From Alphaproteobacteria bacterium (GTDB taxonomy: Bacteria > Pseudomonadota > Alphaproteobacteria > Rhizobiales > GCA-2746425), in the NCBI GenBank assembly GCA_024743215.1, contig JANSWZ010000002.1, positions 372,001-436,000 on the forward strand: DNA of 64,000 nt, written 5' to 3'. The notes under the pieces were generated by a model. It worked only from the letters and a program-made list of their open reading frames with translations, made no database searches and was not told the origin of the DNA. Positions 2,971-19,163 of this stretch are shown piece after piece. The position numbers and the translations under genes were made by a program. Positions within the stretch are counted from its first letter, which is position 1. Every line of letters starts with the position of its first letter.

Positions 2971-2992
2971 GGGTCTGGATTTTCCTAGACCC
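2971..2992 (-). terminator. Weak hairpin overlapping the stop of the MalK-type gene
   Basis: GGGTCT (2971-2976) pairs with AGACCC (2987-2992), with further GG/CC pairing inside. It overlaps the TAG stop at 2985-2987 of the last gene of the amino-sugar operon. No T-run follows on the minus strand, so a terminator role is uncertain. Confidence 0.3.
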
Positions 2993-4037
2993 GCGCACCA
3001 CTGTCATCAAAATAGTGGATTTGAGAGGTGTCGACCTTCAGTCCAACACTTTGCCCATCCTTCAGATCAAGTTTCCCGTCGGCACGAATGTTCAGATTGC
3101 CGAGGCCCGGAACATCGACAAATACATTATTGTCGGCACCATGAAACTCATAAATCGCAACCTTGGCCCTTAGTTCAGAAGCTTCTGGATCACACAATGT
3201 GATGTCTTCTGGTCTTACTCCCAGAACCGTTGGCTTGCCCTGAACAGAACCAACTGTGATCTTTACATTTTTATTGAATTGCATTGCCTGCCCGTCATAG
3301 CTTCCGTTCGGCAAAAGGTTCATTTTGGGACTGCCGATGAACTGCGCCACGAAAGTGCTGTTTGGCCGGGCATACAATTCTTTTGGCGAACCAATCTGCA
3401 TCACCTGACCGTCTTTCAGGACCACAATCTTGTCAGCAAGGGTCATCGCTTCGATCTGATCATGAGTCACATAAATCATCGTTGACCCGAGTTGTTTATG
3501 TAATTTGGCTATCTCAATCCTGGTTTGCGTGCGCAATGCTGCATCCAGGTTGGACAGGGGTTCATCAAACAAAAACCCCTTTGGCTCGCGGACAATGGCA
3601 CGGCCGATCGCAACTCTCTGGCGTTGCCCACCAGACAAATCCTTGGGTTTTCGGTCGAGATAGGAAGTCAGCTTCAATGTCTCGGCGGCCTCTCGAACCT
3701 TGCGGTCAATTTCGGGCTTCGGCACGCGGGCCGTCCTGAGAGCAAAGGCAATATTCTCGTAGACGCTCATATGCGGATAGAGCGCATAAGACTGGAAAAC
3801 CATCGAAAGATTGCGGTCATATGGATCTAATTTTGTGACATCTTCTCCATCAATATGAATAGTTCCGTCATCTGTCTCTTCGAGGCCGGAAATCAACCGC
3901 AACAACGTAGATTTTCCGCAACCGGATGGGCCGACGAAAACAACGAATTCCCCTTCTTCTGCGATGAGGCTGACGTCTTTTATGACATCAGTCGTGCCGA
4001 AGCTCTTTTTTACGTTTTTCAGCTCAATAGTGCCCAC
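2985..4037 (-). CDS. ugpC: ABC sugar transporter ATP-binding protein, MalK/UgpC family
   Basis: The ATPase that powers the sugar importer of this operon. It carries Walker A (GPSGCGKST), signature LSGGQRQR, Walker B (GFLFDEPLSNLDA), the H-loop (VTHDQ) and a C-terminal regulatory TOBE/MOP part (GVRPEDITL). I chose a GTG start at 4037 (VGTIELKNVKKSFG) because a perfect GGAGG at 4043-4047 precedes it by 5 bases. The alternative ATG at 4049 includes that GGAGG in the coding part. The gene overlaps the end of nagA by 14 bases, so translation is likely coupled. One ATPase probably serves both permeases. The symbol is for the family only. Confidence 0.9.
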   Translation of the reverse strand: MGTIELKNVKKSFGTTDVIKDVSLIAEEGEFVVFVGPSGCGKSTLLRLISGLEETDDGTIHIDGEDVTKLDPYDRNLSMVFQSYALYPHMSVYENIAFALRTARVPKPEIDRKVREAAETLKLTSYLDRKPKDLSGGQRQRVAIGRAIVREPKGFLFDEPLSNLDAALRTQTRIEIAKLHKQLGSTMIYVTHDQIEAMTLADKIVVLKDGQVMQIGSPKELYARPNSTFVAQFIGSPKMNLLPNGSYDGQAMQFNKNVKITVGSVQGKPTVLGVRPEDITLCDPEASELRAKVAIYEFHGADNNVFVDVPGLGNLNIRADGKLDLKDGQSVGLKVDTSQIHYFDDSGARV

Positions 4038-5235
4038 CGAGACCTCCATATTTTTCCGTGAGGGGTGATGCAACAGACACCTCCTCTGTTTCGAAGAACA
4101 CGCCATCGACCATCACACCTTGCGCCGATAGTTCCTGGTCCAGCAGCGTAAAGCTTGCTCTGTAGCCGGGCTTGATCCTACCCAGTTCCGCCTGCAACCC
4201 AAGAGCCGCGGCAGGCGCCGAACTAGCCATTTTGATCGCATCAGAGATCGGCACACCAAGAATGTTGACGACGTATTGTACTGCCTGGTCAATGGCCAGA
4301 TGTGCGCCCGCCAATGTCCCATTTGCATCGACTAACTTGCCGTTTTGCAGCGTAATTCCATTTCCTGCCATATGAAATTCCTTGCTCCGACCGGCAAGAG
4401 TTTGCATCGCATCGGAAACAAGAAACAGTCGGTCCGGCCCCATCAAATCATAAGCCATCCTGGCATTGAGTGGGTGAACATGATGCCCATCAGCAATGAT
4501 CCCGGCAAACATGTCCGGATTGGTCATGGTAAATCCAGCAACGCCAGGTTCGCGAACCGTGATCTGAGACATCGCGTTGAAAAGATGCGTCGCACCGGAC
4601 AGCCCCTGGCGTTGAGCCTGCTGCATGTCTTGCGCCGTGGCATTGCTGTGTCCTGCAAACACAATCCAACCTGCATAAGACAATGCCTTGAGAGCCCCGC
4701 GCGATTGTCTTTCCGGTGCGAGCGTAATCAGCTTCACACCTGGCATCGGTCTCAGCAGTGCTGCAATGTCGTTGTCAGATATGGGGCGGATGCAATTTAA
4801 GGGGTGAATGCCGGGTTTGTCCGGACTGAGGAATGGTCCCTCAAGGTGGACACCCAATATTCCGGGCAATTTGGCCTCCAAAGCGGAGCGAACTACGTCC
4901 AATGCCTGGACAAAACATTGATCGGGTGCGGTCGTGAATGTTGGCAAAATGTAGGCCGTGCCACCTTGCCGCGCGGCGCGGCATATTGTTTCAAGAGAAT
5001 GAATTTGCGGGACATCATTGAACATGACATCTCCAGCGCCGTTGATCTGGATATCAATAAAACCAGGTGCAAGGACGGTTGCACGGAGCACTCCATCACC
5101 ATAATCAGCGTTTGGCTCGGCCTTCTCGACCTTGGCAATACGGCCATGTTGAATCTCTACAAGTCGGTCATCCAACACAGACGTGCTTTCACCATCGTAA
5201 AGACGCTCGGCAAAAATATGGCTTACATGCCCCAT
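4024..5235 (-). CDS. nagA: N-acetylglucosamine-6-phosphate deacetylase
   Basis: Converts GlcNAc-6-phosphate to glucosamine-6-phosphate and acetate in the cytoplasm, feeding NagB. The amidohydrolase fold is shown by HLEGPFLSPDKPGIHP, the metal-ligand regions GHSNAT and GATHLFNAMS, the substrate loop IADGHHVHP, and LVSDAM carrying the catalytic Asp. The length (403 residues) is slightly above the usual 380-390. The ATG at 5235 overlaps the TGA of nagB by one base, with GGAAAGG just upstream; a TTG one codon earlier is possible but unnecessary. It lies between nagB and the MalK-type gene in the amino-sugar operon. Confidence 0.96.
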   Translation of the reverse strand: MGHVSHIFAERLYDGESTSVLDDRLVEIQHGRIAKVEKAEPNADYGDGVLRATVLAPGFIDIQINGAGDVMFNDVPQIHSLETICRAARQGGTAYILPTFTTAPDQCFVQALDVVRSALEAKLPGILGVHLEGPFLSPDKPGIHPLNCIRPISDNDIAALLRPMPGVKLITLAPERQSRGALKALSYAGWIVFAGHSNATAQDMQQAQRQGLSGATHLFNAMSQITVREPGVAGFTMTNPDMFAGIIADGHHVHPLNARMAYDLMGPDRLFLVSDAMQTLAGRSKEFHMAGNGITLQNGKLVDANGTLAGAHLAIDQAVQYVVNILGVPISDAIKMASSAPAAALGLQAELGRIKPGYRASFTLLDQELSAQGVMVDGVFFETEEVSVASPLTEKYGGLGGHY

Positions 5236-6011
5236 CAAGATTCAACCTTTCCATTGGGATGAACCGCTTCGTAATAGTCTCGCAAGGTCAATTGGGATGC
5301 AGCCACCTCATCAAGATAGACTTCGGCATGGGGATGAAGCTGAAGAGCACTGGCAGGACATCTTGCCGATAAGGGTCCCTCGATCATCTCCAGGACCGCT
5401 TTGGATTTGTTGTCTCCGATCGCGATCAAGACAATCTCACGCGCGCACAATATTGTTCCAATTCCCATGGTAATCGACAGGCGTGGAACTTCCGCGATAT
5501 TCTTAAAATACCGGCTATTCGCCCGCACGGTTTCCGGGGCAAGTGTCTTGATTCTGACTGTCGAGGACAAACTGGATGTCGGCTCGTTAAAGCCAATATG
5601 TCCGTTTTCGCCGATCCCCAACAGCTGACAATCAATTCCGCCGCATTGCTTAATTGCCGCCTCGTAGCGCCTGGCCTCTTCATTGGGATTTACCGCATTT
5701 CCGAACGGTATACTGGTGTTTTCTGATTTGATGTCGGTGCGTCCGAAAAGATGTTTTTCCATAAAGTGATGGTAGGACATGGGGTGATCGGGCGAGAGAC
5801 CAACATACTCATCCAGATTGAAGGTCCGGATTCTGGAATAGCTGACTTTCTGTTGCTCATACTTTTGCACCATCGCGTCATAGACGGGCTCTACGGTTCC
5901 GCCCGTGGCAAGACCAAGGACGCAAGTTGGCTTCGCGATTACCTTTTCAACAATTCTGTTTGCAATGGCGGCAACTGCAGCTTCCGCTGAATCATGGATC
6001 AGGACTTTCAT
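5235..6011 (-). CDS. nagB: Glucosamine-6-phosphate deaminase
   Basis: Converts glucosamine-6-phosphate to fructose-6-phosphate and ammonia, the last step before glycolysis. Family motifs are complete: GLATGGTVEPVY (phosphate loop), FNLDEYVGL with the catalytic Asp, and GIGENGHIGFNEP with the catalytic Asn-Gly-His. The length of about 258 residues matches E. coli NagB (266). The ATG at 6011 is preceded by AAGGG; a GTG one codon upstream is also possible. The gene follows the MalG-type permease by only 3 bases and overlaps nagA, so it sits inside the operon. Confidence 0.97.
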   Translation of the reverse strand: MKVLIHDSAEAAVAAIANRIVEKVIAKPTCVLGLATGGTVEPVYDAMVQKYEQQKVSYSRIRTFNLDEYVGLSPDHPMSYHHFMEKHLFGRTDIKSENTSIPFGNAVNPNEEARRYEAAIKQCGGIDCQLLGIGENGHIGFNEPTSSLSSTVRIKTLAPETVRANSRYFKNIAEVPRLSITMGIGTILCAREIVLIAIGDNKSKAVLEMIEGPLSARCPASALQLHPHAEVYLDEVAASQLTLRDYYEAVHPNGKVES

Positions 6012-6014
6012 CAC

Positions 6015-6848
6015 TCAACCCTTCACAGCGCCGGCGGTCATTGATCGGCTGATGTGTTTGTACATCAGGATTCCGAGCACCACAGGGGGCAGTGAGGCAA
6101 CCACGATTACCGCCGCCGCCACACCCCATTGCACTCCGCCACCACCGGACGAAAAGAAAAAAGAGGCGCCGACCGTCATGGGCACAGCTTTTGTTGTGGT
6201 CAACATCAAGCCAAACAGGAATTCATTCCAGGCCGTGATAAAGCTGAAAATGAACACCGTCGCCAAAGCAGGCAGGCAAATGGGAAATACGATTTTAATC
6301 AGGATCGTGAAAATGCGCGCGCCATCCATGCGCGCAGCCTCATCCAATTCGTAAGGTACATCATTGATCGCATTGACAAGAAGCAGAAGTGCCAATGGCA
6401 GGTTTACAACAGCTAAAACAAGGCCCAGCCCCAGTGGAGTGTCAAGCAACCCAAGTGTTTGATACATCATGTAAAGAGGGATTGCGAAGATGATCAAAGG
6501 CATCGCACGCAGGTTCACGACAGTGGGAAAGATTACATTTGTGCCATACCCACGCCGCGCCACAGCATAAGAAAGCGGAAAGCACAGCATGATGGGCAGA
6601 ATTGAACCGATCAGCGAGGCCATCAGACTGTTCTGCAAATAGGCAAATATGTTCAATCGCTCAGTTACCTCAAGAATGACCGCAAAGTTTTGAAGCGTTG
6701 GCTCGCTTACAAAAAGGCCCGGAGAGCGGCTGATCTCGGCCGCTGACTTGAGGGAGGCGGAAATGGTCGAGATGACCGGAAAATTGATGATGAAGGCCAC
6801 AATGATGAACACGACCCAGCGAAAGATATTTGATTTCCGGTTTTTCAT
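6015..6848 (-). CDS. Carbohydrate ABC transporter permease (MalG/UgpE type)
   Basis: An inner-membrane permease of 277 residues with six predicted hydrophobic segments. The EAA loop that docks to the ATPase is seen as DEAARMDGARIFTILIKIVFPICLPAL. The C-terminal FSFITAWNEFLFGLML is typical of MalG partners. It overlaps the MalF-type permease by an ATGA (ATG at 6846-6848, stop of the upstream gene at 6845-6847). Together the two form the pore for the amino sugar bound by the protein at 7762-9084. Confidence 0.95.
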   Translation of the reverse strand: MKNRKSNIFRWVVFIIVAFIINFPVISTISASLKSAAEISRSPGLFVSEPTLQNFAVILEVTERLNIFAYLQNSLMASLIGSILPIMLCFPLSYAVARRGYGTNVIFPTVVNLRAMPLIIFAIPLYMMYQTLGLLDTPLGLGLVLAVVNLPLALLLLVNAINDVPYELDEAARMDGARIFTILIKIVFPICLPALATVFIFSFITAWNEFLFGLMLTTTKAVPMTVGASFFFSSGGGGVQWGVAAAVIVVASLPPVVLGILMYKHISRSMTAGAVKG

Positions 6849-7705
6849 GCCCGTTTCCTCCGAAGGAAGCGGCCTGCAAAGAACAAAATGACAAAGGCAA
6901 CACAGAACAGCACCACCGATGCAGCGAGCGCTTTTCCGATGTCTCCTGACCTGAAGAAAGACAAATAGATATAGATGGAGAGAGAGGTTGTTGACCCGCC
7001 GGCTCCAGAGCCGGTCAAGACGAATATATTGTCGAAGACTCTGAATCCGTCAATAAATCTGATGAAAAACCCGACTGCAATTGTGGGTGCCATTTGCGGC
7101 AACTCAATGTACCAGAACATGCGCCACGGGCGCGTTCCATCAACTGCAGCGGCCTCCCGCATGTCACTGGGAATTGCTTGATACGCCATATAAAACAGCA
7201 GAAATGCAAAGGGAGTCCACTGAAGGGTTTCAATTGTGAATACGGTCAGGAACACATTTTCTCGGCTCAGAAACGCCGGGCTCCAATTAAACCAAGTGTA
7301 TAGATAATGTGGCAATGACCCCACGAATTCATGAAGAACGAGGCGGTACATAAGCCCCATCATCACCGGAGCAATAATCATTGGCATGATCAAAACGGCG
7401 ATCATCCAGTTGTTGTTTCTGATGATTGGAGCCAGATAGACAGCCAGGATCAGGCCAAGAGCACATTCTGCAAATGCGGTTGTCACACCAAATTTCAGAG
7501 AAAACCAAGAAGCAGACCAAAACTCGGCGTCATTGAAAACCGTTACAAAATTCTGCCCACCGTTGAAACTGGGAGATCTGAGATTTTCAAATGAAACTTC
7601 GGAAAGACTGTAGATGATATCGATTATGGTCGGAAACCCGAGCATTGCCAGCAGGAACAGCACGACTGGCGCAGCTAAAATGCGGTTCTCTTGTCTCGTT
7701 GTCAT
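6845..7705 (-). CDS. Carbohydrate ABC transporter permease (MalF/UgpA type)
   Basis: Partner permease with several membrane segments beginning at about residue 10 (RILAAPVVLFLLAMLGFPT). The EAA loop is MREAAAVDGTRPWRMFWYIELPQMAPT. The ATG at 7705 is preceded by GGATGGAAAC; an in-frame GTG four codons upstream is the alternative. It ends in an ATGA overlap with the MalG-type permease. The 56-base gap to the binding-protein gene holds a strong hairpin. Confidence 0.94.
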   Translation of the reverse strand: MTTRQENRILAAPVVLFLLAMLGFPTIIDIIYSLSEVSFENLRSPSFNGGQNFVTVFNDAEFWSASWFSLKFGVTTAFAECALGLILAVYLAPIIRNNNWMIAVLIMPMIIAPVMMGLMYRLVLHEFVGSLPHYLYTWFNWSPAFLSRENVFLTVFTIETLQWTPFAFLLFYMAYQAIPSDMREAAAVDGTRPWRMFWYIELPQMAPTIAVGFFIRFIDGFRVFDNIFVLTGSGAGGSTTSLSIYIYLSFFRSGDIGKALAASVVLFCVAFVILFFAGRFLRRKRA

Positions 7706-7722
7706 GTTTCCATCCACTTAAC

Positions 7723-7754
7723 AAGCAGCCGGCCAAGGAGAAGGCCGACTGCTT
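7723..7754 (-). other. Intercistronic stem-loop after the sugar-binding protein gene
   Basis: AAGCAGCCGGCC (7723-7734) pairs with GGCCGACTGCTT (7743-7754), a 12-bp stem with one mismatch. It sits between the binding-protein stop and the next permease start. Such hairpins commonly protect the upstream message so that binding protein exceeds permease. There is no T-run, so a full terminator is unlikely. Confidence 0.6.
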
Positions 7755-7761
7755 CACAGGC

Positions 7762-9084
7762 TTACTTCAAGAGTTCAGCCATGCCATCTGAGGTGGCGGA
7801 CAGCGCCTCATCCAAAGACTTGCCTCCAGACAGGAACCCTGTGAATTCCTTGGCTTGAAGCTCGTAGACCGACAAAGCTTTTGCAGATGTGCCACCATTC
7901 ATGACAAACCCATAACTGGATGCATACTCTCCCAGCGGAACCAGGTCCGGGCGTTGCTCGGCAATCTCCGCCACAGCATCTGAGGTCAGGCCCGGCGCCC
8001 CACCATTCAACGCATAGGTCTGTGCAGCTTCCGCTGTTGATAACCAACGAACAAAGGCTTCTGCGCCTTCGGGGTTCTTACCGCTGGCATTCACACCAAT
8101 TCCCAGACCATGCACGTGTGTAAACCTGCCTTCAGGACCCGTCGGCGGGGCGATAGTCGATGTTACTTCGGCCGTTACGGGGGTTTTGTCGGGATCCTTC
8201 AGATCTGCAGCTGCGGCGTTCCACTGTACCATCGCGGCAACCTGACCGGCACCAAAAGCGGCATTTGCCTCTGCGTATTCATAGGAAAATGAATCGTTGG
8301 GGGTCGCGCCAGCGTCAACCAGGATCTTGAACAAGCCAAGAGCTTCCCGGTAGGCATCAGAGTCGACCGTGATATTGCCATCAGCATCCATCCAGTCCGC
8401 GCCGTATGACCGTGGCAGCGAGTGGAATACCATCATGTTGAACAACAGATTTTTGAGCTGCAACACGGTTCCATAACGTGTCGGGCTGTCCGGGTTAATC
8501 GATTTGGTGAAGTACAGCGCGTTCGCCGCAAAGTCTTGCCAGGTCCACGAATCAGGGTCCTTTGGTGACAGACGTGCTCCCAGATATTTCTCAGAAATGT
8601 CGCCATATTTTGCGTGCTGGCTTTCATCCACCAGAAGCGCTTCATTCAGGTCTGAACGATAATACAGAAAATGCAATGACAGGTCTGTTGGGACACCATA
8701 TTGCTTGCCCTCAAACTGCATTGTACTCAGCACGGACTCGCCAAACACATCTGCGGCATTGTCCGACAGGGTTACGGTCTTCATATAGGGCGCGTATCGA
8801 CCGATGGAGTAAGTTGCCAGCAAATTTGCATCAAACGCGTCGGTTCCCGCAGCCAGGTCAGCCTGAAGCTTGTCAAAGAAACCTTCTCGGCTGAAGAAGA
8901 TGAGTTTGACTTTGTTTTCTTCTGAGACTGCTGGATTGCTGTTATACAATTCTGCTGCTGCCGTAAGCGCAACTTCTTCAGGGCCACCAGGCCAGCCTAG
9001 AACAGTAACCTCGGCATTCGAGGCAGTAGCTGTGCACAGTGCCGCAGCGGCAACTGCACCCAATAAATATCTCTTCACTGTCAT
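7762..9084 (-). CDS. Extracellular sugar-binding protein of the amino-sugar ABC importer (family 1)
   Basis: A periplasmic solute-binding protein of 440 residues. A signal peptide (MTVKRYLLGAVAAAALCTATASNA) precedes EVTVLGWPGGPEEVALTAAAELY. Later parts show the family-1 layout: YGVPTDLSLHFLYYRSDL and AFGAGQVAAMVQWNAAAADL. The ATG at 9084 overlaps the TGA of the ROK kinase, with AAAGGAATATGCA upstream. Its genes are embedded with nanE, nagA and nagB, so an N-acetylhexosamine ligand is the simplest guess; the exact sugar is not shown by sequence. Confidence 0.93.
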   Translation of the reverse strand: MTVKRYLLGAVAAAALCTATASNAEVTVLGWPGGPEEVALTAAAELYNSNPAVSEENKVKLIFFSREGFFDKLQADLAAGTDAFDANLLATYSIGRYAPYMKTVTLSDNAADVFGESVLSTMQFEGKQYGVPTDLSLHFLYYRSDLNEALLVDESQHAKYGDISEKYLGARLSPKDPDSWTWQDFAANALYFTKSINPDSPTRYGTVLQLKNLLFNMMVFHSLPRSYGADWMDADGNITVDSDAYREALGLFKILVDAGATPNDSFSYEYAEANAAFGAGQVAAMVQWNAAAADLKDPDKTPVTAEVTSTIAPPTGPEGRFTHVHGLGIGVNASGKNPEGAEAFVRWLSTAEAAQTYALNGGAPGLTSDAVAEIAEQRPDLVPLGEYASSYGFVMNGGTSAKALSVYELQAKEFTGFLSGGKSLDEALSATSDGMAELLK

Positions 9085-9992
9085 TGCATATTCCTTTCTT
9101 GGTGTATGTGAGATTGCGCCGCAATTGCGGCTATGCCCACGATTCCCGCTTTTTCCCGAAGCACAGACGTGAGAATATCGATGTTGTGGTTTGGTATGAG
9201 TTCATTCAGGTGACGCTCGATCTCGGCGACAAACCCTTCTGCAAGTCCAATTCCCCCACCAATCACAATCATTGGGGGATCTATTACGAAGGAAATGTCC
9301 CTGCAGAGCTTCGCCACGCGTAGCGCTGAGGTAGAAACGATCCTCCGCGCCCACGCCTTGCCCTCTCGAGCATTTTCAAAGACTGACTTGGACGAGTGCT
9401 CAATGCCTGTCTCCGTCAAGGCCTGGTTGGCAATCCAACGGCCGGTGGCCAGGTCTTCAAATGGTTCGGCGCCACCATCTGATGCCGTCAGATTCTGGGA
9501 GACCAGGCCAAAATGCCCCGCCAGGCCCCGCTGCCCTTGCAGCAATTTTCCATTGCAAACAATCCCGCCTCCCAATCCTGTGGAAACAGTGAGGTAAACA
9601 AGATCTGACCCCTGCCCTGCGCCATATATATGCTCGCCCCATGCGGCAGATTGTGCATCATTCAGAACTTCAAAATGAGCGCCAATTCGGGACAATGAAG
9701 CCGCTATATCGAATGGCTTACCGACAGATAGGGTCGCCGGATTGACACTTTTCCAAACTCCGCTTTCCACCTGTCCCGAAACAGTAACGCCAACACAGTC
9801 GAATTCACCCCTCCACTGAATAGCCACTTCATGAAGAGCTGACATCCACTCGACCGGACCGGCATCGCGCAATGTTGGAAGAAGGCGGGAAGTCAAAACC
9901 TTGTTGCCACGCACCAGGGCTACCAGGATTTTAGTGCCGCCAATATCAGCTGCAAGAACCGGTATGTCCTGCAAAACGGCAGAAGGGGTCAT
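9081..9992 (-). CDS. ROK-family sugar kinase, probable N-acetylmannosamine/N-acetylglucosamine kinase
   Basis: Probably phosphorylates the imported N-acetylhexosamine with ATP so that NanE and NagA can act. The ROK phosphate loop LAADIGGTKILVA is at about residues 13-25, the catalytic Asp lies in LNDAQSAAWGE, and GLGGGIVCNGKLL and GHFG follow. The usual ROK zinc motif CxCGxxGC after the GH is absent: the stretch reads LVSQNLTASDGGAEPFEDLATG. NanK proteins of some bacteria also lack zinc, so activity need not be lost. It overlaps nanE (ATGA) and the binding protein (ATGA). Confidence 0.9.
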   Translation of the reverse strand: MTPSAVLQDIPVLAADIGGTKILVALVRGNKVLTSRLLPTLRDAGPVEWMSALHEVAIQWRGEFDCVGVTVSGQVESGVWKSVNPATLSVGKPFDIAASLSRIGAHFEVLNDAQSAAWGEHIYGAGQGSDLVYLTVSTGLGGGIVCNGKLLQGQRGLAGHFGLVSQNLTASDGGAEPFEDLATGRWIANQALTETGIEHSSKSVFENAREGKAWARRIVSTSALRVAKLCRDISFVIDPPMIVIGGGIGLAEGFVAEIERHLNELIPNHNIDILTSVLREKAGIVGIAAIAAQSHIHQERNMQ

Positions 9993-10660
9993 GACACTAT
10001 CCCATCGCGTGTAATGGCATCGCGGAACCAGCCGGTCACGACTTCTGTGCGCGTGATGGCTGAGCCGACAACAACAGAGTCAGCCCCGGCCAAAATGGCT
10101 GATGCTGCCGCGTCAGGCGTATTGTACCGCCCTTCTGCTATTACAAAACTGCCGAGTTTGGCCAATTCCGACACCAACTCCAGATCAGGCGATTCAGGCA
10201 CTTCCCCAGTCGTGTATCCGGACATTGTTGTGCCCAGGATATCAGCGCCCAGTTTTTGCGCATTGATCCCATCTCCCAGGCAGGAACAGTCTGCCATCGA
10301 CAGAATGCCGAGGGACCTTATGGTTTCTATCGCGGCAGCGACCGTCTCTGGACGCGGGCGGTCGGTGGCATCGACTGCCACAATATCTGCACCAGCAGAC
10401 ACCAGATCATTTATGTCTTGAATGAAGGGCGTTATGCGAACCGGGCTTTCGACCAGATCAACTTTCACTATTCCAATAATGGGGCAATCCACAACGGCGC
10501 GCACAGTTTGAACGTTGACGACACCTTCGATGCGAACACCTGCGGCACCGCCCAGAACAGCAGCCTGTGCCATAGCAGCAATAATGGATGGAGTGTCCAT
10601 GGGTCCGCCCACACAAGGCTGACATGAAACAATAAGTCGTTTGTTTAGTTTTTGCAGCAC
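9989..10660 (-). CDS. nanE: Putative N-acetylmannosamine-6-phosphate 2-epimerase
   Basis: Interconverts ManNAc-6-phosphate and GlcNAc-6-phosphate. The 223-residue TIM barrel has the family N-terminus LIVSCQPC, then GGAAGVRIEG, the catalytic-lysine strand GIVKVDL, a DATDRPRP phosphate region and IAEGRYNTPDAAASAILAGADSVVVGSAITR at the end. The start is GTG at 10660 with GGGGG eight bases upstream. It is the first structural gene after the operator/promoter. No nanA (sialic acid lyase) is in the window, so ManNAc itself may be the substrate of the pathway. Confidence 0.94.
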   Translation of the reverse strand: MLQKLNKRLIVSCQPCVGGPMDTPSIIAAMAQAAVLGGAAGVRIEGVVNVQTVRAVVDCPIIGIVKVDLVESPVRITPFIQDINDLVSAGADIVAVDATDRPRPETVAAAIETIRSLGILSMADCSCLGDGINAQKLGADILGTTMSGYTTGEVPESPDLELVSELAKLGSFVIAEGRYNTPDAAASAILAGADSVVVGSAITRTEVVTGWFRDAITRDGIVS

Positions 10661-10688
10661 AAACGTACCCCCACAATTCTCAAAGCGG

Positions 10689-10716
10689 AGAGTACCAGTT
10701 AGATACCAGATGTCAA
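10689..10716 (-). promoter_or_regulatory. Predicted promoter of the nanE-nagA operon
   Basis: On the minus strand a perfect TTGACA (10716-10711) is followed 16 bases later by TACTCT (10694-10689), which matches the -10 consensus at three positions. The predicted transcript would start near 10682, about 22 bases before the GTG of nanE. The operator dyad covers the spacer, so binding would block polymerase. Confidence 0.55.
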
Positions 10717-10723
10717 CTGGTAC
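10692..10723. promoter_or_regulatory. Inverted repeat, likely GntR operator
   Basis: GTACCAGTT (10692-10700) and AACTGGTAC (10715-10723) are perfect 9-base inverted arms 14 bases apart. A third TACCAG half-copy lies at 10704-10709. The site is 10 bases from the 3' end of the gntR gene and overlaps the nanE promoter. HutC-type GntR proteins bind similar (A)CTGGT/ACCAG(T) palindromes, so the regulator encoded next to it is the natural ligand. The regulator's effector is probably an amino-sugar phosphate. Confidence 0.65.
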
Positions 10724-10733
10724 TTAACAGTTT

Positions 10734-11489
10734 CTACCTTTGAAGGTCGGTGACGAAGTCAAAGACCTCAGCGTTGTAACAGGTCACCGTGAACTCAATC
10801 GGTTTTCCCAGGGCGGTGCCGCAACACCTTTCAACAATCAGTGCTGGCGCGCCCACTTCTGTCTCCAGCAACTCCGCCTCTTCTGCGCTCATGGTTTTCG
10901 CCGTAATTCGCTGAACCCCTCGCTCCGGCAATGCACCCAAAGCATCCAGCGTGGCATATAATGAAAGCCCGATTGCCTCTGGGGACTTAACGATAACGCT
11001 GGGCACAACAGCTGTTTCCAGTGCTATCGGGCGCTCATTACCAAGCCTTACCCGACGCAGCCTTACGACCGATTCTCCATCGGCCAGTTTGAGCATTTGG
11101 CGTTCCTGCTCCGTCGGATTTGTCGTTTCGGCACTCAACAACCTCATACCCGGTTCTATTCCCCGTGAGCGCATATCCTCTGAGAATCCAAGCAGGTTTG
11201 AGATCTGTTTCCCGACTTTTGCAGCAACGCTTGTCCTGGCTCCGTGGCGCCGAACCAACTGCCCATCAGACACGAGAGCATCAATGGCATGGCGGACAGT
11301 TATGCGAGAAATACCAAGTAATTCAGCCAGCTTGCGCTCACCTGGCAAACTTGCCCCGGGAAGCAGCACTTCATCGTCGATGGCAACCTTGAAAGCATTG
11401 GCAAGGTTTTCATATTTAATTTCGGAAACGGCACGAGCTTCAAACACAGACCTGAGATATTCAATGGTCTTGTTGTTGTTGATATTCAT
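10734..11489 (-). CDS. GntR-family (HutC subfamily) transcriptional regulator of the amino-sugar operon
   Basis: A 251-residue repressor candidate. The N-terminal winged helix is seen as LLPGASLPGERKLAELLGISRITVRHAIDALVSDGQLVRRHGARTSV cut here into its known order, at about residues 38-85. The C-terminal UTRA ligand domain contains EAELLETEVGAPALIVERCC. NagR/DasR of this family respond to glucosamine-6-phosphate or GlcNAc-6-phosphate. It is transcribed ahead of nanE on the same strand, and the inverted repeat at 10692-10723 is its probable operator. Confidence 0.9.
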   Translation of the reverse strand: MNINNNKTIEYLRSVFEARAVSEIKYENLANAFKVAIDDEVLLPGASLPGERKLAELLGISRITVRHAIDALVSDGQLVRRHGARTSVAAKVGKQISNLLGFSEDMRSRGIEPGMRLLSAETTNPTEQERQMLKLADGESVVRLRRVRLGNERPIALETAVVPSVIVKSPEAIGLSLYATLDALGALPERGVQRITAKTMSAEEAELLETEVGAPALIVERCCGTALGKPIEFTVTCYNAEVFDFVTDLQR

Positions 11490-12254: not shown

Positions 12255-14297
12255 ATGGGTTGGCAAATGGCTTCCAGGTTAAATGTTCTAAAAGCGTCAA
12301 CAGCGATTGCCATGTTGTCAGCATATGGTTTGGTGGCTGTGAGCAGTGCCTCAGCAAACGATCACAATACAAATTGGGCCGGTGGCTCCTTCGGCTTTCA
12401 TGCAGGCTGGGGGCTTGGAAATTCAAGCACTCAAGAAGAAGGTGATCCTGACGATATTGCGAATGATACTCTGATTTCAGGTGGTCTGTTTGGGGCTCAG
12501 GCGGCATATGATTGGGCCTTTTCCAATGGATTGATTCTTGGTTTGGGGGCGTCATTTTCTGGGACCGATATCAACGGTACCGATGTTGACAAGGAATGCG
12601 CTCCGAATTGCGGTGGTTTTGACGAGACAAAGGTTGACGCCCTTGCCAGCGTGACAGGTCGAGTTGGCTGGGTCGGGAATGATCCTTCGATGATGTTTTA
12701 TGCGCGCGGTGGGTTGGCCTGGGGTCAGATTCATCATGGATGGATCACTGACACCTACGATGAATCCTATTCCAAATCCGCGGGACATTTTGGTTGGACA
12801 GTGGGTGCAGGTATTGAAAAATCTCTCTCAAACTGGCCGGGTGTTACGGCAAGCCTAGAGTATAATTACTACAATTTCGGCAGCGGACGGGAACTGGGCG
12901 TAGTGGATGGCAACGATATTGAGGGTGATCTTGACGTACACACAATCATGTTTGGCCTGAACCTGCGCCCCGGCATGAATGATGGTGATGTTCATGCAGC
13001 TTCAAATGGCGCATATGACTGGACAGGTGTCTCAATTGGTGTGCACGGCGGATGGGGCGCCGGTGCATCTGATAATTATTCCGACTACAGCGATCCTGAT
13101 TGGATTTCAAACGATACGAATTTGAGCGGTGGTCTGCTAGGGCTTCGGTTCGGTTATGACTGGGACATGATGAATAATTGGGTGGTCGGAGTTGGAGCAT
13201 CGATTTCAGGCACTGATATCAATGGTTTTGCTGAAGACAATTACGGTCCTAATGATCTGAGTGGGCTTGACGAAACAAAAGTAACCTCACTTCTCAGCGT
13301 AACAGGTCGTGTTGGCTGGAAAGGGAATAACCCCTCCACATTGTATTATGTCCGGGGTGGTTATGCTCAGGCGCGTGTGGACTATGGCTGGATTCCCTAC
13401 ACGTATGATTATTCCTACACGGGCTCCAATACGCATCATGGTTGGACAGTTGGCGTTGGTAAAGAGCAGGCGCTGCCATTCTGGCCAGGTGCAACGGGCT
13501 TTTTGGAATATAATTACTACAATTTTGGTGACTATCAGGGGATCTCAAACAATTCAGACTACAAAGTTGACGGTCAGCTAGATATTCACGCCGTCATGGT
13601 TGGTGTGAATTTCCGTCCCTGGCAGCAAACCCAGGGGGATGAGTCTGACAAGAATGAACAGTCCGAGCTCACCAATGCTTGGTGGGCAGGCCCATCTCTG
13701 GGTATTCATACTGCCTGGAGCATCGGCGAGACTGACTCGCGGTCTGACTGGGACAGCGACAGTGGAGTAGATACGGACATTGGCGGTGGCCAGATCGGTA
13801 TTCAGGCTGCATATGACTGGGCCATCGGGAATCATTGGGTTCTGGGGCTTGGCGCATCGGTTGCTGCAACAGATATTAATGGTTTTGGTGAAGACGGCGA
13901 CTGCGTAACCGGCTGTGGTGATCTGAGTGAAATCAAGATCGATGCACTGGCGAGTGTAACCGGACGTGTAGGGTGGAATGGTGGCGATGCGTCGACGCTG
14001 TATTACGCACGCGGCGGTATTGCCTGGGCACATGCCAATTATGATTGGCAGCCATCTTCTTACTATTACACTTATACCGGATCAGCATTGCATACCGGCT
14101 GGACAGTTGGTGCTGGTCTTGAAAAGAAAATACCGATGTTTGAAAATGCAACTGTATTTGCTGAATATAATTACTTTGATTTTGGAAGCTGGGAAGATAC
14201 AGACGTCACACCCGACGGTTATTACCTTGACGGAAAATTCAATTTTCACACAGCAAAGATCGGTATGAATTTCAAGTTCAACGGGCCGCAGCAATAG
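12255..14297 (+). CDS. Outer-membrane beta-barrel protein with three tandem porin-like (Omp25/31-type) domains
   Basis: A 680-residue secreted protein. A signal peptide ends near residue 34 (VSSASA). It is followed by three copies of one domain of about 204 residues: 38-241, 253-456 and 474-680, joined by short polar linkers of 11 and 17 residues. Each copy starts with W(A/T)G-S-G-H--W, contains SGTDING-like and SVTGRVGW motifs, a Y(A/V)RGG strand, GWTVG and LEYNYYNFG, and ends with a barrel-closing strand such as FHTAKIGMNFKF. A single copy resembles the 8-stranded Omp25/opacity-type porins of Rhizobiales. Three whole barrels in one chain are unusual. Alternative ATG at 12267. A hairpin terminator follows. 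Confidence 0.9.
   Translation: MGWQMASRLNVLKASTAIAMLSAYGLVAVSSASANDHNTNWAGGSFGFHAGWGLGNSSTQEEGDPDDIANDTLISGGLFGAQAAYDWAFSNGLILGLGASFSGTDINGTDVDKECAPNCGGFDETKVDALASVTGRVGWVGNDPSMMFYARGGLAWGQIHHGWITDTYDESYSKSAGHFGWTVGAGIEKSLSNWPGVTASLEYNYYNFGSGRELGVVDGNDIEGDLDVHTIMFGLNLRPGMNDGDVHAASNGAYDWTGVSIGVHGGWGAGASDNYSDYSDPDWISNDTNLSGGLLGLRFGYDWDMMNNWVVGVGASISGTDINGFAEDNYGPNDLSGLDETKVTSLLSVTGRVGWKGNNPSTLYYVRGGYAQARVDYGWIPYTYDYSYTGSNTHHGWTVGVGKEQALPFWPGATGFLEYNYYNFGDYQGISNNSDYKVDGQLDIHAVMVGVNFRPWQQTQGDESDKNEQSELTNAWWAGPSLGIHTAWSIGETDSRSDWDSDSGVDTDIGGGQIGIQAAYDWAIGNHWVLGLGASVAATDINGFGEDGDCVTGCGDLSEIKIDALASVTGRVGWNGGDASTLYYARGGIAWAHANYDWQPSSYYYTYTGSALHTGWTVGAGLEKKIPMFENATVFAEYNYFDFGSWEDTDVTPDGYYLDGKFNFHTAKIGMNFKFNGPQQ
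12366..12977 (+). repeat. Barrel repeat 1 of the triple-barrel protein
   Basis: Encodes residues 38-241. It includes a Cys pair (KECAPNCGG) in the extracellular-loop region after the SGTDING strand; repeat 2 lacks these cysteines and repeat 3 has DCVTGCGD in the same place. Confidence 0.85.
13011..13622 (+). repeat. Barrel repeat 2 of the triple-barrel protein
   Basis: Encodes residues 253-456 and aligns with repeats 1 and 3 along its whole length (for example SVTGRVGWKGN, YYVRGG, HHGWTVGVG, LEYNYYNFG, LDIHAVMVGVNFRP). The loop cysteines are missing here. Confidence 0.85.
13674..14294 (+). repeat. Barrel repeat 3 of the triple-barrel protein
   Basis: Encodes residues 474-680 and carries the C-terminal strand GMNFKF close to the end, as expected for recognition by the BAM complex. 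Loop cysteines DCVTGC are present. Confidence 0.85.
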
Positions 14298-14344: not shown

Positions 14345-14370
14345 ACGCTCACTCTGATAAGAGTGAGCGT
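14345..14370 (+). terminator. Hairpin terminator after the triple-barrel gene
   Basis: An 11-bp perfect stem: ACGCTCACTCT (14345-14355), loop GATA, AGAGTGAGCGT (14360-14370), followed by a short TTATCGTT tail. It lies 48 bases after the stop codon. Confidence 0.7.
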
Positions 14371-14429
14371 TTATCGTTCAATTGCGCCACTTGTCTTCTG
14401 GTGCAGACTCCAGTGTGAAAGTGGAAAAT

Positions 14430-16349
14430 ATGGTCCGGACGCCTGTCCAGGGAAATGGGCAAAATAGTGGCCCGCCACCTATCTTGAAGCGTGCTGTTGA
14501 AGCACATCAGATGGGACAATATCAAGCTGCCTCAAAACTGTTCAGAACATCATTGAAGCGGGAGGGCGAGTCGCCTGTTGCCCTGTTTCGGTATGGATTG
14601 CTGAAGTTTGAACAACAACAATATCCGGAAGCCGCCAGGCTTTTTCGCCGCGCGGCGCAGCGCGAACCAAATTCCGGCCCGCTATTTCATTATCTCGGAA
14701 TTTGCCTTGCCGCGATGGAGAAGAATGACGAAGCCATTTCTGCCTATGAATCGGCATTGCGTATTGCTCCCAATCAGGCAGAAACCCACAACAATCTGGG
14801 GCATGTATTGCAATGGTCCGGCCGACTTGAGGAAGCGCAAGCCAGTTACAAGTCTGCTCTTGCAATCAAACCGGACTATTTTGAAGCGCTCAATAATCTT
14901 GCAAATACTCTAAATCTACTTGGTAAGCCAGCAGAAGCGGTGCCCTTGTTTGAAGAGGCATTGATCCGGCAGCCAAGATTTGCGGAAGCAATGGTGAATT
15001 ACGGCAATGTGCTGATTCAACTAGGCCGATTTGACGAAGCCATTGTCCAATATAACAAAGCGCTTCAAATTGCGCCATCTGACAGAGATGCACTGGAATG
15101 CCTGGCGCGAACGTTGCAACTGATGGAACGTGGCGATCAGGCGGTGCCGTTGTGGGAAAAACTGGTTTCTCTTTTCCCAGGTCATGAGGCTTCGCTGATT
15201 GGACTGGGAACGACATTGCGAGAACTTGGTCGACTGGATGAAGCCGTGACCGCCTTTGAGAAAGCCGTTGAAGTTTCACCCAAAAATGTCTCCGGCTATT
15301 ACAATTTGGGCTTGTCCAGATCATTCAAGCGCGACGAACGGCTTTTCGCCGCGCTGCTGAAACTGGAAAGGGGGTTCCCCGGTTCCAACCCGCTTGAAGA
15401 GGTCGAATACCGCTTTACCACTGGCAGAGCCTTTGCGGGGATCAAGGATTATGATCGCTCGTTTCAGGAGTACGACGCTGCAAACCGGCTAAGGCGCTCG
15501 CAGCTGAATTATGACGAAGCTGAAATTTTAGAGCGCTTCACACGAATCCAGAGCGTGTTTAATGACGAGTTTATGAGTAGTCGCGGGCAACTCGGGTCAC
15601 CCTCTGAGCGCCCGGTTTTCATTTTGGGAATGCCGCGTTCGGGGACGACGCTTGCGGAACAAATCCTGTCAAGTCATCCAGCAGTCTTTGGAGCTGGAGA
15701 GCTTACAGGTATGGGCAATGCCATTTCATATATCGCGCAGAAAGTGGATGAGGGACGCTTTCCCGAGGATACTGCCCTGCTTGAAGACAAGGAATTCGCG
15801 CAACTGGGTTCAGACTACCTTTCGGTGCTGGAGAAGTTTTCACCCGCAAATGCCGAGCGGGTTATCGACAAGATGCCAAATAATTTCCTGACTGCTGGTT
15901 TGATTCATCTGATGTTGCCCAATGCCAGGATTGTGCATATGCGCCGCGATCTTCGCGATGTTGCTGTGTCAAATTACACCACAATGTTCAATACTGGTAT
16001 GGAGCACACATATGATTTGGCTGAGCTAGGCCGCTATCTTCGCTCCTATTCACATCATATGGACCATTGGCGCCAGGTTTTGCCACAGAACGCCATGCTT
16101 GAAATCCGATATGAAGATTTAATTACCGATTTGGAAACCCACGCAAGATCGCTTGTGGCTTATTGTGGATTGCCCTGGGACGATGCCTGTCTGAACTTTC
16201 ATGAAACCGAACGCTCTGTTCGGACAGCAAGTGTAACGCAGGTCCGACAACCCATCTACACAAGTTCAGCCGGGCGTTGGCGCGTGTATGAACAGCATCT
16301 CGGTCCGCTTTTGGATCAATTGGAAGGCATTATCCCATCGGAGGCTTGA
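14430..16349 (+). CDS. Tetratricopeptide-repeat protein with C-terminal sulfotransferase domain
   Basis: A 639-residue fusion, probably cytoplasmic. Residues from about 15 to 290 hold some eight TPR units (for example NLGHVLQWSGRLEEAQASYKSAL cut into the A/B helix pattern with NNLA, GNVL, GLG repeats). The rest is a sulfotransferase with the PAPS 5'-phosphosulfate loop GMPRSGTTLAEQILSSHP and the 3'-phosphate region MRRDLRDVAVS. TPR-sulfotransferases transfer sulfate from PAPS to unknown protein, lipid or glycan acceptors. The ATG at 14430 follows GTGGAAAAT; upstream TTG/GTG codons in frame (14382, 14412) are alternatives. It follows the triple-barrel gene on the same strand but after a terminator. 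Confidence 0.9.
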   Translation: MVRTPVQGNGQNSGPPPILKRAVEAHQMGQYQAASKLFRTSLKREGESPVALFRYGLLKFEQQQYPEAARLFRRAAQREPNSGPLFHYLGICLAAMEKNDEAISAYESALRIAPNQAETHNNLGHVLQWSGRLEEAQASYKSALAIKPDYFEALNNLANTLNLLGKPAEAVPLFEEALIRQPRFAEAMVNYGNVLIQLGRFDEAIVQYNKALQIAPSDRDALECLARTLQLMERGDQAVPLWEKLVSLFPGHEASLIGLGTTLRELGRLDEAVTAFEKAVEVSPKNVSGYYNLGLSRSFKRDERLFAALLKLERGFPGSNPLEEVEYRFTTGRAFAGIKDYDRSFQEYDAANRLRRSQLNYDEAEILERFTRIQSVFNDEFMSSRGQLGSPSERPVFILGMPRSGTTLAEQILSSHPAVFGAGELTGMGNAISYIAQKVDEGRFPEDTALLEDKEFAQLGSDYLSVLEKFSPANAERVIDKMPNNFLTAGLIHLMLPNARIVHMRRDLRDVAVSNYTTMFNTGMEHTYDLAELGRYLRSYSHHMDHWRQVLPQNAMLEIRYEDLITDLETHARSLVAYCGLPWDDACLNFHETERSVRTASVTQVRQPIYTSSAGRWRVYEQHLGPLLDQLEGIIPSEA

Positions 16350-16520: not shown

Positions 16521-18863
16521 TTATCTGGCGGCCGGGCTTATAATAATCGGTTCTTCGCCCGGTAATCTGGCCATGACAGAGACAGCATCCAGAATATAAC
16601 CGTCTGGAAGTATCGCAGCTTTCGAACCGAAATTGGCAATCAACACAGATCCATCTGCGAAGCGCGTTTCCTGCAGCAAGTAATTGTCGGACAGAAAGCG
16701 GAATTCCGTCATTGCCTGTGTCATCAGACGTTTATGCAATGGTGCAAATGCGACCATCTGGCTGGTGATCTCAGGCATATCGCGCGCCATGGTCTTGTGG
16801 CTCAAATGATAAAGCGGTGGCACCATGTAAAGCAGTTCAAACAGTTGATTCACCGATTGCTGCCCTTTTGGTTTCAGCGATCCAAAATGCCAATGGTGGG
16901 TCGTTACCACCGCATCATGAAGCGCGATCTGGAACAGAGGCAAGCGGAAGGCCGGATCATAAATGACACGCTCCATTAATGGCGGCACTTGTGTGGGCTC
17001 GAAGAACCTGTCTGGCGCTTCGATAGGCCAATAATTCCCTATGTAGTATTTGGGTGCGGGGTTTCTGCGCATGCGAGGGTCCATCCAATCAAAGACGGGC
17101 GTCGTGGTGCCGTGCGAAAAATCGAGTTTCGCAGCAAAGGCCGCCGTGCCTGTTTCTGAGCCAAGCACCAGGCCAAGACCCTGCGACGCAAAAGCCAATC
17201 GGCGCTTGGTCGCCTCATAAACACCTCTTCGGTCGGTTACACGGCCTTCAGTGTAATCCTCGAACACCAACCCCGTGCCATCCACATCAAGAAAGTAACT
17301 ATTCAACCCAGCGGTGGCTGAGACTGCTTTGATGCGGCTTTCGGCGTAGTTTTCGACTGCCACTGGATTGACGTACACGCCTTTGCCATGAAAGCCGGTG
17401 ACCGGTTTTCCAGTCTTGTCCTGATAGCGCCCGGCTTCAAAAATATCTGTTCCCATTTGTGCCGTTTGCCACGTAAATGTCTCAGTCTCTGCGTGCGCGC
17501 TTGCGTAGCTGTCATAGGTGCCAATCAGATATCCTTTCTCTATGGCCAGAGCCACGGCTTCGGGATGCCAGATTGCGTCCAGCCAATTTTCAACACCTAG
17601 CCAGGCGGTTTGAATGCCTGCTGCTGACAGACCTGCGATGACGCTTTTTGACATGCCTGAACCCCAGGTTTCCGCCAAGTTCAGACTGTCATTGAACTCT
17701 GTCGAGAGCGCTTTCCGCACAGCCAGCATGTAGCCGGGTCCAGCTTCGGGATCATGGCCACCGGGCAACGGATTTACGGGTATTCTCAGAACCGAATCTG
17801 GCAAGGCGGCATTGATGGCATGGATCAGAACGCCCCGGCTGTATTTGGAAACCCAACCGTCCGGCCCCTGGGCTTCCGTCACAGCCAAATCCACAGCGTC
17901 AAGTAAGTCATCTGGCATAGCTGACCAAAGTGAATGGGACAGTGTTCCCGGGTCTTTCCGGCGGTTGCCAAAAATCCGCACGAACCGGCGCCAGGATTTC
18001 ACATCTTCAGGCTTTAGCGGGCCCTTCTCCCAAAGATAGATATGCGGTGCGCCGGCGAGTTTGGCGACATCTGGACGCTCTGATATCTTTTCCCGAAGTG
18101 TCTTGAAACCACCCGTATTCTTCAGATGCTCTCTGTTTATCAACGCACCATCAATCCAATTTGCCGGTCCAAACTGGACGCTCACCTGATAGGGGCGGTC
18201 AAGGTTTAGACGCGTGAACTCGTGTTGGAAGCCAACCGACAACAAGCCCTTTGGAGTTGTATAGGTAACATTGGCGTCCCAAGGCGTTTTGAGCAGCCAC
18301 GTGGTCGAGTATTCCTGATTCTGCTCGGTAAAGAAGTTTTGGGTCTGATGCTCTGCTGCGGGTAGACCGTTCAGCACATTGTGAAGGAAGTTGCCCCAGT
18401 CTTCATCATCGGCGGGAACACGTCGCCCTTCTCCCAGGATAGGCAGCGCATATTGCACATCTGTCAGCGGCGCCGAAACGGGCCAATTCAGCTGACCAGA
18501 CCGCAACGACAGGAAGGACATCTCCAACGCATCTTTGGCAATAGCAGCCTTTACGCGAAACATGCCGTCTTCCGTGCTGGCGATCCAGTTTGCGTCAATG
18601 GCTGAGGCGACCAGATGGCTGGTCTCTGCGTTGAACGCCGGACCGGACAGAACGCGGGGATCATATCCTTCAGGTGCGCCAGACAAAGCTAACGTGTCAG
18701 TATCGATCCGAAACAGGATACCGTCTGCACCAAGGGTAAGCATCTCGGCATCTGCCGCGGTGACCAAAAGGCAAAACGCTGTGACGGTAAGGCTGAGATG
18801 TGACATGAACTGAACAATGACTGTCTTGATGTCGAATTTGATCTGCTTGGCTCTAATTTGCAT
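16521..18863 (-). CDS. Secreted glycoside hydrolase, probably GH129/GH101-related
   Basis: A protein of about 780 residues with a long-n-region signal peptide ending VTAADA near residue 39. The C-terminal half looks like a TIM-barrel glycosidase of the GH101/GH129 group: YFLDVDGTGLVFEDY carries a candidate acid residue, LVLGSETGTAAFAAKLDFSHG follows, and FRLPLFQIALHDAVVTTHHWHFG, then ELLYMVPPLYHLS, matches the usual end of that barrel. Known GH129 enzymes release alpha-linked GalNAc from mucin-type glycans. The assignment is by motif recall only. The ATG at 18863 is chosen for its AGGAG seven bases upstream. Its place near the amino-sugar operon fits glycan scavenging. Confidence 0.6.
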   Translation of the reverse strand: MQIRAKQIKFDIKTVIVQFMSHLSLTVTAFCLLVTAADAEMLTLGADGILFRIDTDTLALSGAPEGYDPRVLSGPAFNAETSHLVASAIDANWIASTEDGMFRVKAAIAKDALEMSFLSLRSGQLNWPVSAPLTDVQYALPILGEGRRVPADDEDWGNFLHNVLNGLPAAEHQTQNFFTEQNQEYSTTWLLKTPWDANVTYTTPKGLLSVGFQHEFTRLNLDRPYQVSVQFGPANWIDGALINREHLKNTGGFKTLREKISERPDVAKLAGAPHIYLWEKGPLKPEDVKSWRRFVRIFGNRRKDPGTLSHSLWSAMPDDLLDAVDLAVTEAQGPDGWVSKYSRGVLIHAINAALPDSVLRIPVNPLPGGHDPEAGPGYMLAVRKALSTEFNDSLNLAETWGSGMSKSVIAGLSAAGIQTAWLGVENWLDAIWHPEAVALAIEKGYLIGTYDSYASAHAETETFTWQTAQMGTDIFEAGRYQDKTGKPVTGFHGKGVYVNPVAVENYAESRIKAVSATAGLNSYFLDVDGTGLVFEDYTEGRVTDRRGVYEATKRRLAFASQGLGLVLGSETGTAAFAAKLDFSHGTTTPVFDWMDPRMRRNPAPKYYIGNYWPIEAPDRFFEPTQVPPLMERVIYDPAFRLPLFQIALHDAVVTTHHWHFGSLKPKGQQSVNQLFELLYMVPPLYHLSHKTMARDMPEITSQMVAFAPLHKRLMTQAMTEFRFLSDNYLLQETRFADGSVLIANFGSKAAILPDGYILDAVSVMARLPGEEPIIISPAAR

Positions 18864-19163
18864 AATTGCTCCTGCTGTTTCCTGGCGTGTTCGATGGTGA
18901 TTTGGTAAATCCAAGTCACTGCAAATGGCGAAGCGTTGCGCAAATCCACCCCTGTCAATTCATAGAAGGGTATCAACGGCATCTGTTTAGGTAGCCGCCA
19001 TGTGACGTGGCCATTTGCGGATTCATCTCGAGGTTTGCACCAACTTGTCGCCGGGCCGTAACGAGCCTTTTTTCAAGAATCGTCCGCTCCAATCGGGACG
19101 GACACGATATTGATCAACATCGTGCGCTGGATGCGGCCGCCAGGGATTGATCCCCGCTCGGAT
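18864..19163. other. 300-base intergenic region
   Basis: Lies between the alpha/beta hydrolase stop and the glycosidase start, both on the minus strand. It contains a small CGTCC/GGACG stem (19081-19085 with 19096-19100), which on the minus strand precedes a stretch ending in several As. I see no gene in it. Confidence 0.5.

Follow-up and report, generated by a model that had tools for sequence, protein, structure and literature searches.

The locus analyzed here raises the question of what purpose is served by an outer-membrane protein that repeats a complete barrel three times in one chain, and whether the gene that follows it, coding for a sulfotransferase with tetratricopeptide repeats (TPRs), belongs to the same function. 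The window, i.e., the whole stretch of DNA under analysis, comprises 64,000 nucleotides, and its relatives point to the Hyphomicrobiales as the probable order of origin. The 680-aa open reading frame proposed in an earlier sequence-only reading is present with an ATG start, and a second in-frame ATG at 12267 suits the signal peptide equally well. The features of the gene pair are as follows:

12255..14297, + strand: triple-barrel outer-membrane protein gene, 680 aa, ATG at 12255
12255..12356, + strand: signal peptide, residues 1-34 (...SSASA/ND), assigned by eye
12366..12977, + strand: barrel copy 1, residues 38-241, with Cys115 and Cys119
12978..13010, + strand: linker 1, residues 242-252, 11 aa, periplasmic by topology
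13011..13622, + strand: barrel copy 2, residues 253-456, cysteine-free
13623..13673, + strand: linker 2, residues 457-473, 17 aa, acidic
13674..14294, + strand: barrel copy 3, residues 474-680, with Cys550 and Cys554
14345..14370, + strand: hairpin between the two genes, 11 bp with 6 GC pairs and a weak T tail
14382..16349, + strand: TPR-sulfotransferase gene, 655 aa from TTG
15612..16184, + strand: Sulfotransfer_3 domain, residues 411-601 (Pfam), with protein-tyrosine sulfotransferases as best PDB matches

Architecture and predicted fold of the triple-barrel protein

Full-length pairwise alignment confirmed the three tandem copies at residues 38-241, 253-456 and 474-680, with 102/203, 96/203 and 93/202 identical residues (50, 47, and 46%). 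Local alignment scores between copies were 506-552 as compared to a maximum of 74 for shuffled sequences (500 shuffles per pair), and a home-made barrel profile matched residues 34-239, 252-455 and 469-675. With at least two complete barrel domains in one chain, the window protein is a multibarrel protein. Dating of the duplication at the DNA level, as suggested earlier, was carried out at four-fold sites of residues common to the copy pairs: agreement was 24/57, 12/52 and 14/48, which is near chance, so the duplication is old but undatable from the DNA. The Pfam model OMP_b-brl (PF13505) matched copy 1 with 45.4 bits, above its cut-off of 28.7, and was not listed (E ≤ 1) for copy 2, copy 3 or the whole chain; the Autotransporter model touched copy 3 and the whole chain, both below cut-off. 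No match of the window protein to an Omp25/Omp31 family model was found in Pfam or NCBIfam, which leaves the earlier label 'Omp25/31-type' unsupported, nor to the PDB by sequence search.

Copy 1 models as an OmpA-type eight-stranded barrel that folds alone in prediction (pLDDT 79.4, pTM 0.76; the input alignment combined copy 1 with the other two copies and with two single-barrel relatives from Bradyrhizobium sp. OK095, L045, and a Phreatobacter MAG, L046). The model aligned with OmpA at Z 17.3 and an rmsd of 2.7 Å over 168 residues (VIA-align), and Foldseek and VIA-align grouped it with OmpA, OmpW, OprG and NspA (Z 16-17). Copy 1 is thus predicted to share the eight-stranded barrel of the OmpA transmembrane domain, OmpW, NspA and the OMP_b-brl family, with 8-15% identity to the OmpA, OmpW, OprG and NspA structures, from which the window protein differs by its three copies per chain. 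Prediction of the full chain gave 8+8+8 strands, but at a pLDDT of 49 and compatible with other closures, and this model was left out of the fold search.

The earlier claim of three whole barrels therefore held as the better reading, with eight predicted strands in each copy and copy 1 folding alone, although closure in the full-chain model is ambiguous; we consider three separate barrels in one chain highly probable. A single 24-stranded barrel, or one with strands in common between copies, is very unlikely: the full-chain model cannot decide between one barrel and three, and the terminal aromatic of the last strand, which is the outer-membrane barrel assembly signal, is found in copy 3 only (IGMNFKF; copies 1 and 2 terminate in Arg-Pro, ...LRP and ...FRP), leaving the full signal to the last copy, but copy 1 by itself reaches Z 17 to OmpA, linkers of 11 and 17 residues set complete eight-strand units apart, and single-barrel relatives exist. 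The even strand number would place both ends of each unit, and hence both linkers, in the periplasm. By topology, the loop between strands 3 and 4 that bears the cysteines of copy 1 (115/119) is extracellular; the cysteines of copy 3 (550/554) occupy the corresponding loop, and copy 2 has none. This cysteine pattern and the acidic character of the linkers (2 acidic and 0 basic residues in linker 1, 5 acidic and 1 basic in linker 2) were as previously noted, but they indicate no function.

Multibarrel proteins in related genomes

Chains with several such barrels had been called rarely described, which was partly right: multibarrel outer-membrane proteins are already a described class (Solan et al. 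2021, PNAS, doi 10.1073/pnas.2104059118, cited in PMC11494523). The window protein is like the members of this class in carrying several complete barrels per chain. A search for further chains with two or more barrels found seven multibarrel genes in four of the five genomes of the window's genus, namely five triples (two in G000, the window gene and C17, and one each in G001, G002 and G003) and two doubles (one each in G001 and G003). Beyond the genus, G040 has a triple, and doubles occur in G031, G462, G356 (two) and G067, these five double-barrel genes being spread over four further families; a 352-aa protein whose second copy is only partial (L204) was not counted. Since the PF13505 survey of 61 genomes used best rows only, multibarrels are recorded as occurrences and not as a rate per genome, and the twelve regions opened were chosen by long frames or best scores and not randomly. 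The possibility that triple copies are common in the family, which the earlier reading had named as a refuting condition, was partly borne out: multibarrels are recurrent but not universal. They reportedly consist of several complete, mostly 8-stranded barrels per chain and arise by lineage-specific amplification, and we know of no sulfotransferase partner mentioned in the 2021 study.

None of the other four genomes of the genus contained a close match to the window protein, and a match covering all three copies was also absent from 396 other genomes of the order (E ≤ 1e-18, at most three candidates per genome scored); the matches across the order were double or single barrels with 32-43% identity. 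In the domain tree, the three window copies cluster together (100/99), apart from the triples of G002 and G003 and also apart from those of G000-C17, G001 and G040; in this last set, each position of the C17 triple pairs with the like position of the G001 triple. This separation of three sets of triples points to at least three triplications, with the placement of the G040 copies less certain. Two side observations concern domain arrangement: G356 carries two adjacent double-barrel genes (L194, 6462-7922 and 8168-9508) beside a single-barrel gene, and a 1071-aa protein (L197, 4023-7238) has one C-terminal barrel domain (residues 833-1064). Taken alone, the triple barrel is ordinary, one more case of a known class.

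The TPR-sulfotransferase and its pairing with surface-protein genes

The earlier reading was silent on the most informative feature of the locus, a gene starting 84 bp downstream of the triple-barrel gene (an in-frame ATG at 14430 is its 17th codon). Its product matches 26 Pfam families, mostly TPR models, and Sulfotransfer_3 with 152.9 bits; with both parts present, it is a member of the TPR-containing sulfotransferase family. The best PDB matches of the catalytic domain were seven protein-tyrosine sulfotransferase sequences (E 4e-11, then 4e-7 to 3e-6), followed at lower rank by polyketide-pathway sulfotransferases, and the enzyme beside C17 likewise matched protein-tyrosine sulfotransferases. 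Over about 200 residues, including the PAPS loop and the K-x-P motif, the window enzyme aligns with TPST1 (PDB 5wri), TPST2 (3ap1) and 8w5z, its PRSGTT, the Glu at +21 and DKMP falling on the corresponding positions; it differs from these by a long TPR region and, judged by eye, by having no signal peptide. The Glu 21 residues after the PAPS-loop Arg, at the same spacing as in the aligned tyrosine sulfotransferases, was present in 103/103 relatives with a recognised loop (the loop pattern missed 13 of 116), and 30 of these 103 gave no match to a K-x-P-x-x-F/Y/L pattern. PAPS loop, Glu base and Lys, which we take to be the catalytic residues of protein-tyrosine sulfotransferases, are thus all aligned in the window enzyme, which looks competent. 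A separate observation concerns the divergently placed sulfotransferases of G002 and G003 (L055, L058, L059): their sequences are diverged, the PAPS loop reading SRSGK instead of PRSGT, and they occupy a long branch of their own.

A TPR-sulfotransferase gene lies next to each of the six triple-barrel genes found, in the same direction in the window, C17, G001 and G040 and divergently in G002 and G003; the G040 triple was found via its sulfotransferase, the other five independently of it. Among the seven double-barrel genes, one does so (G003, divergent), and no sulfotransferase lay in the stretch fetched around the five of other families and one of the genus. PF13469 matches were sampled in 150 genomes of the order and 153 of the class, and 60 and 40 neighbourhoods, respectively, were fetched: the order set consists of 60 regions at stronger matches outside the genus, the class set of 40 regions holding 45 of the 50 matches outside the window's genome. 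Genes were called with a codon model, and a neighbour was marked as a barrel by a signal peptide plus an aromatic C-end or by the barrel profile. The adjacency criterion was devised for this analysis, and training of the profile drew in part on partners from the genus and the order, which favours those two sets. By Pfam, TPRs are present in 60 of 61 order-set enzymes and in at least 43 of 46 class-set enzymes.

In other orders, 12/79 directly adjacent genes were barrel-marked as compared to 3/326 at ranks 2-6 (p = 4e-7; 10/91 vs. 2/328, p = 7e-6, with a narrower first criterion). Pfam identified the 12 partners as two OMP_b-brl proteins, three Porin_4 proteins and seven TonB-dependent receptors, of which a single genome (G290) supplies three; this check covers the adjacent hits. 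Within the order but outside the genus, the counts were 13/117 adjacent and 15/443 further away (p = 0.0017), and in the genus, the set that prompted the question, 7/18 and 5/74 (p = 0.0016). Partners confirmed by Pfam in the order set were Porin_4 proteins flanking one enzyme on both sides, OMP_b-brl at four loci (one of them a triple), an autotransporter and three DcaP-like barrels; a Porin_2 gene at L109 lies 993 bp away on the opposite strand, and L113 is a sub-threshold barrel match. The candidate at L115, one of the 13 order hits, was rejected as it is a sodium/calcium exchanger according to Pfam. With the false positive and the distant opposite-strand gene removed, the order signal weakened to p = 0.009, and collapsing four related loci brought it to p = 0.076. 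Twenty shorter family members without any TPR match, used as a control, showed no excess (1/40 vs. 4/137), and the comparison of loci with a barrel partner gave 22/100 with TPRs vs. 1/20 without (p = 0.064). A co-directional adjacent barrel is absent at most loci, namely 50/60 in the order and 28/40 in other orders. When the partnered label (29 rows, including distant and sub-threshold cases) is mapped onto a tree of 115 sulfotransferase domains, it requires 17 changes as compared to a shuffled mean of 25.9, at least six of them forced by well-supported branches, which indicates that the pairing was gained or lost many times.

Annotated plasmids were consulted as well, as a set with no control and with incomplete gene tables. 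A search with the sulfotransferase domain gave 47 records (40 listed), and one region was opened per genus for 17 of the 19 listed genera (Lelliottia and Enterobacter were left out), of which 16 were annotated and usable. An outer-membrane barrel was directly adjacent in 4/16: an autotransporter in Pacificitalea (divergent) and in Thalassospira, a porin in Cereibacter and a TonB receptor in Pseudoalteromonas. Barrel genes at a distance of two or three genes were seen in Kluyvera (autotransporters to either side), Asticcacaulis and Azospirillum (an autotransporter). The Comamonas plasmid carries an adjacent gene for a giant cadherin-domain adhesin together with type I secretion genes, and that of Sulfitobacter type I secretion genes and a calcium-binding protein. 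No adjacent surface-protein gene was found in 6/16 regions (Methylovirgula, Komagataeibacter, Sphingobium, Roseibium, Hirschia and Sphingomonas); in Komagataeibacter a TonB receptor lies four genes off.

Some individual arrangements are recorded here in their own right. On the Asticcacaulis plasmid (L213), genes for a TonB receptor, a sulfotransferase, an Asp/Asn beta-hydroxylase and a TPR-sulfotransferase run in one direction, so that a single receptor is followed by two kinds of enzyme that may modify peptides. On that of Paroceanicella (L214), a TPR-type sulfotransferase (by similarity) is divergent from flagellin inside a flagellar cluster. A cassette of a DcaP-like barrel followed by a TPR-sulfotransferase recurs at L110, L113 (weak barrel), L122 and L124, with a lipoprotein-like gene next in the first three, the one at L113 with a trypsin-like peptidase domain. 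Genes of the IalB family lie directly downstream of TPR-sulfotransferases at L080 (5981-6559) and L097 (7536-8057). In Bradyrhizobium sp. OK095, the single-barrel relative (5890-6687, +) is convergent with a TPR protein (6689-9010, -) similar by eye to O-GlcNAc/SPINDLY-type transferases, which makes it a further case of a TPR enzyme next to a barrel.

In open-access PMC, none of the papers listed for sulfotransferases with TPRs, TonB receptors, porins or tyrosine sulfation concerned TPR-sulfotransferases beside outer-membrane proteins. The new part of the locus is the paired sulfotransferase, which is worth following.

What the enzyme may act on

Starting from the three copies, the predicted fold of copy 1, the enzyme class assigned by sequence and the repeated pairing with surface-protein genes, we propose that a triplicated surface barrel is modified before export by the sulfotransferase encoded next to it, an overall explanation to which we assign a probability of about 0.5. 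An OmpA-fold barrel would have been triplicated within the lineage, giving three barrels and twelve surface loops per chain. The downstream gene product would be a soluble cytoplasmic TPR protein whose TPR part binds the unfolded barrel precursor and whose protein-tyrosine-sulfotransferase-like domain transfers sulfate from PAPS onto its side chains; subsequent export by Sec and insertion by BAM would display the sulfate on the surface loops. Since the shared pattern is a soluble TPR-sulfotransferase encoded next to an exported surface protein, modification of the client before export is the simplest reading. For the separate steps, the odds that the enzyme acts on the neighbouring protein are roughly even, sulfation of the barrel protein itself is possible but clearly less probable, and the timing before export is more tentative still. 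The hairpin between the two genes counts against the proposal; such sites are no commoner in the scan than in shuffled sequence (5 found, 5.5 expected).

By analogy, the arrangement may follow the principle of HMW1C and the autotransporter heptosyltransferases, in which a soluble modifying enzyme stands beside a surface protein and acts before export. HMW1C-type enzymes are encoded beside the adhesins that they glycosylate. The window enzyme differs in being a sulfotransferase and not a glycosyltransferase, and no glycosyltransferase model was found among the 25 listed of its 26 Pfam families.

The strongest alternative, possible but less probable than the main proposal, is that the sulfotransferase modifies a surface glycan, a lipid or a small molecule, and that its proximity to barrels reflects common surface-remodelling clusters. 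The Sulfotransfer_3 Pfam family includes small-molecule and glycan enzymes, in keeping with the polyketide-pathway sulfotransferases seen at lower rank, and a glycosyltransferase gene directly follows the enzyme in two plasmid loci. The window neighbourhood also fits: the pair is flanked upstream by an amino-sugar catabolism locus (2988-11489, -) with model matches to GlcNAc-6-P deacetylase (nagA), glucosamine-6-P deaminase (nagB) and ManNAc-6-P epimerase (nanE-like), below cut-off to ManNAc kinase (nanK-like) and a GntR regulator, and with a sugar-type ABC transporter ATPase, and downstream by a GH129 glycosidase gene (16521-18914, -). The GH129 gene had no match at E ≤ 1e-20 in the other four genomes of the genus, one of which has the NanE-like neighbour. 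Tyrosines in acidic context (at least three acidic neighbours) occur at 0.66 per 100 aa in partner barrels (shuffled 0.55) and at 0.87 in unpartnered ones (shuffled 0.77); this lack of enrichment counts against protein-tyrosine sulfation, and a tyrosine-sulfation signature was dropped as a candidate feature of the partners. Besides Tyr, the target may be Ser/Thr, another residue or a glycan. A protein client is favoured by the partners themselves, which are unrelated barrel families together with autotransporters, a giant adhesin and flagellin, and by the best structural relatives of the enzyme, which act on protein tyrosine. It is improbable that the window holds an ordinary lineage-specific multibarrel protein with the sulfotransferase gene as a chance or selfish neighbour: multibarrels do arise repeatedly, six double-barrel genes have no sulfotransferase in the fetched stretch, and the window protein lacks close matches in its genus, but the association of all six triples, from at least three triplications, with a TPR-sulfotransferase gene and the recurrence of adjacency in other orders speak against it.

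Extending the proposal of modification before export beyond this locus, we suggest, with considerable reserve, that TPR-sulfotransferases could form a widespread, undescribed system of Pseudomonadota that sulfates exported surface proteins before export, each enzyme beside its own client. Clients would be TonB receptors, porins, autotransporters, multibarrels and perhaps adhesins and flagellin, with the triple barrels as a class in which the modified loops are multiplied. To our knowledge, protein sulfation is scarcely known in bacteria, and enzyme-client pairs across unrelated families of surface proteins make it testable. If true, this would give a function to a large enzyme family annotated only as 'tetratricopeptide repeat-containing sulfotransferase', and the charge of surface receptors in many environmental bacteria would be set by a modification that at present goes unmeasured. 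The frequent location of such enzymes beside surface-protein genes suggests that bacteria may sulfate their own surface proteins.
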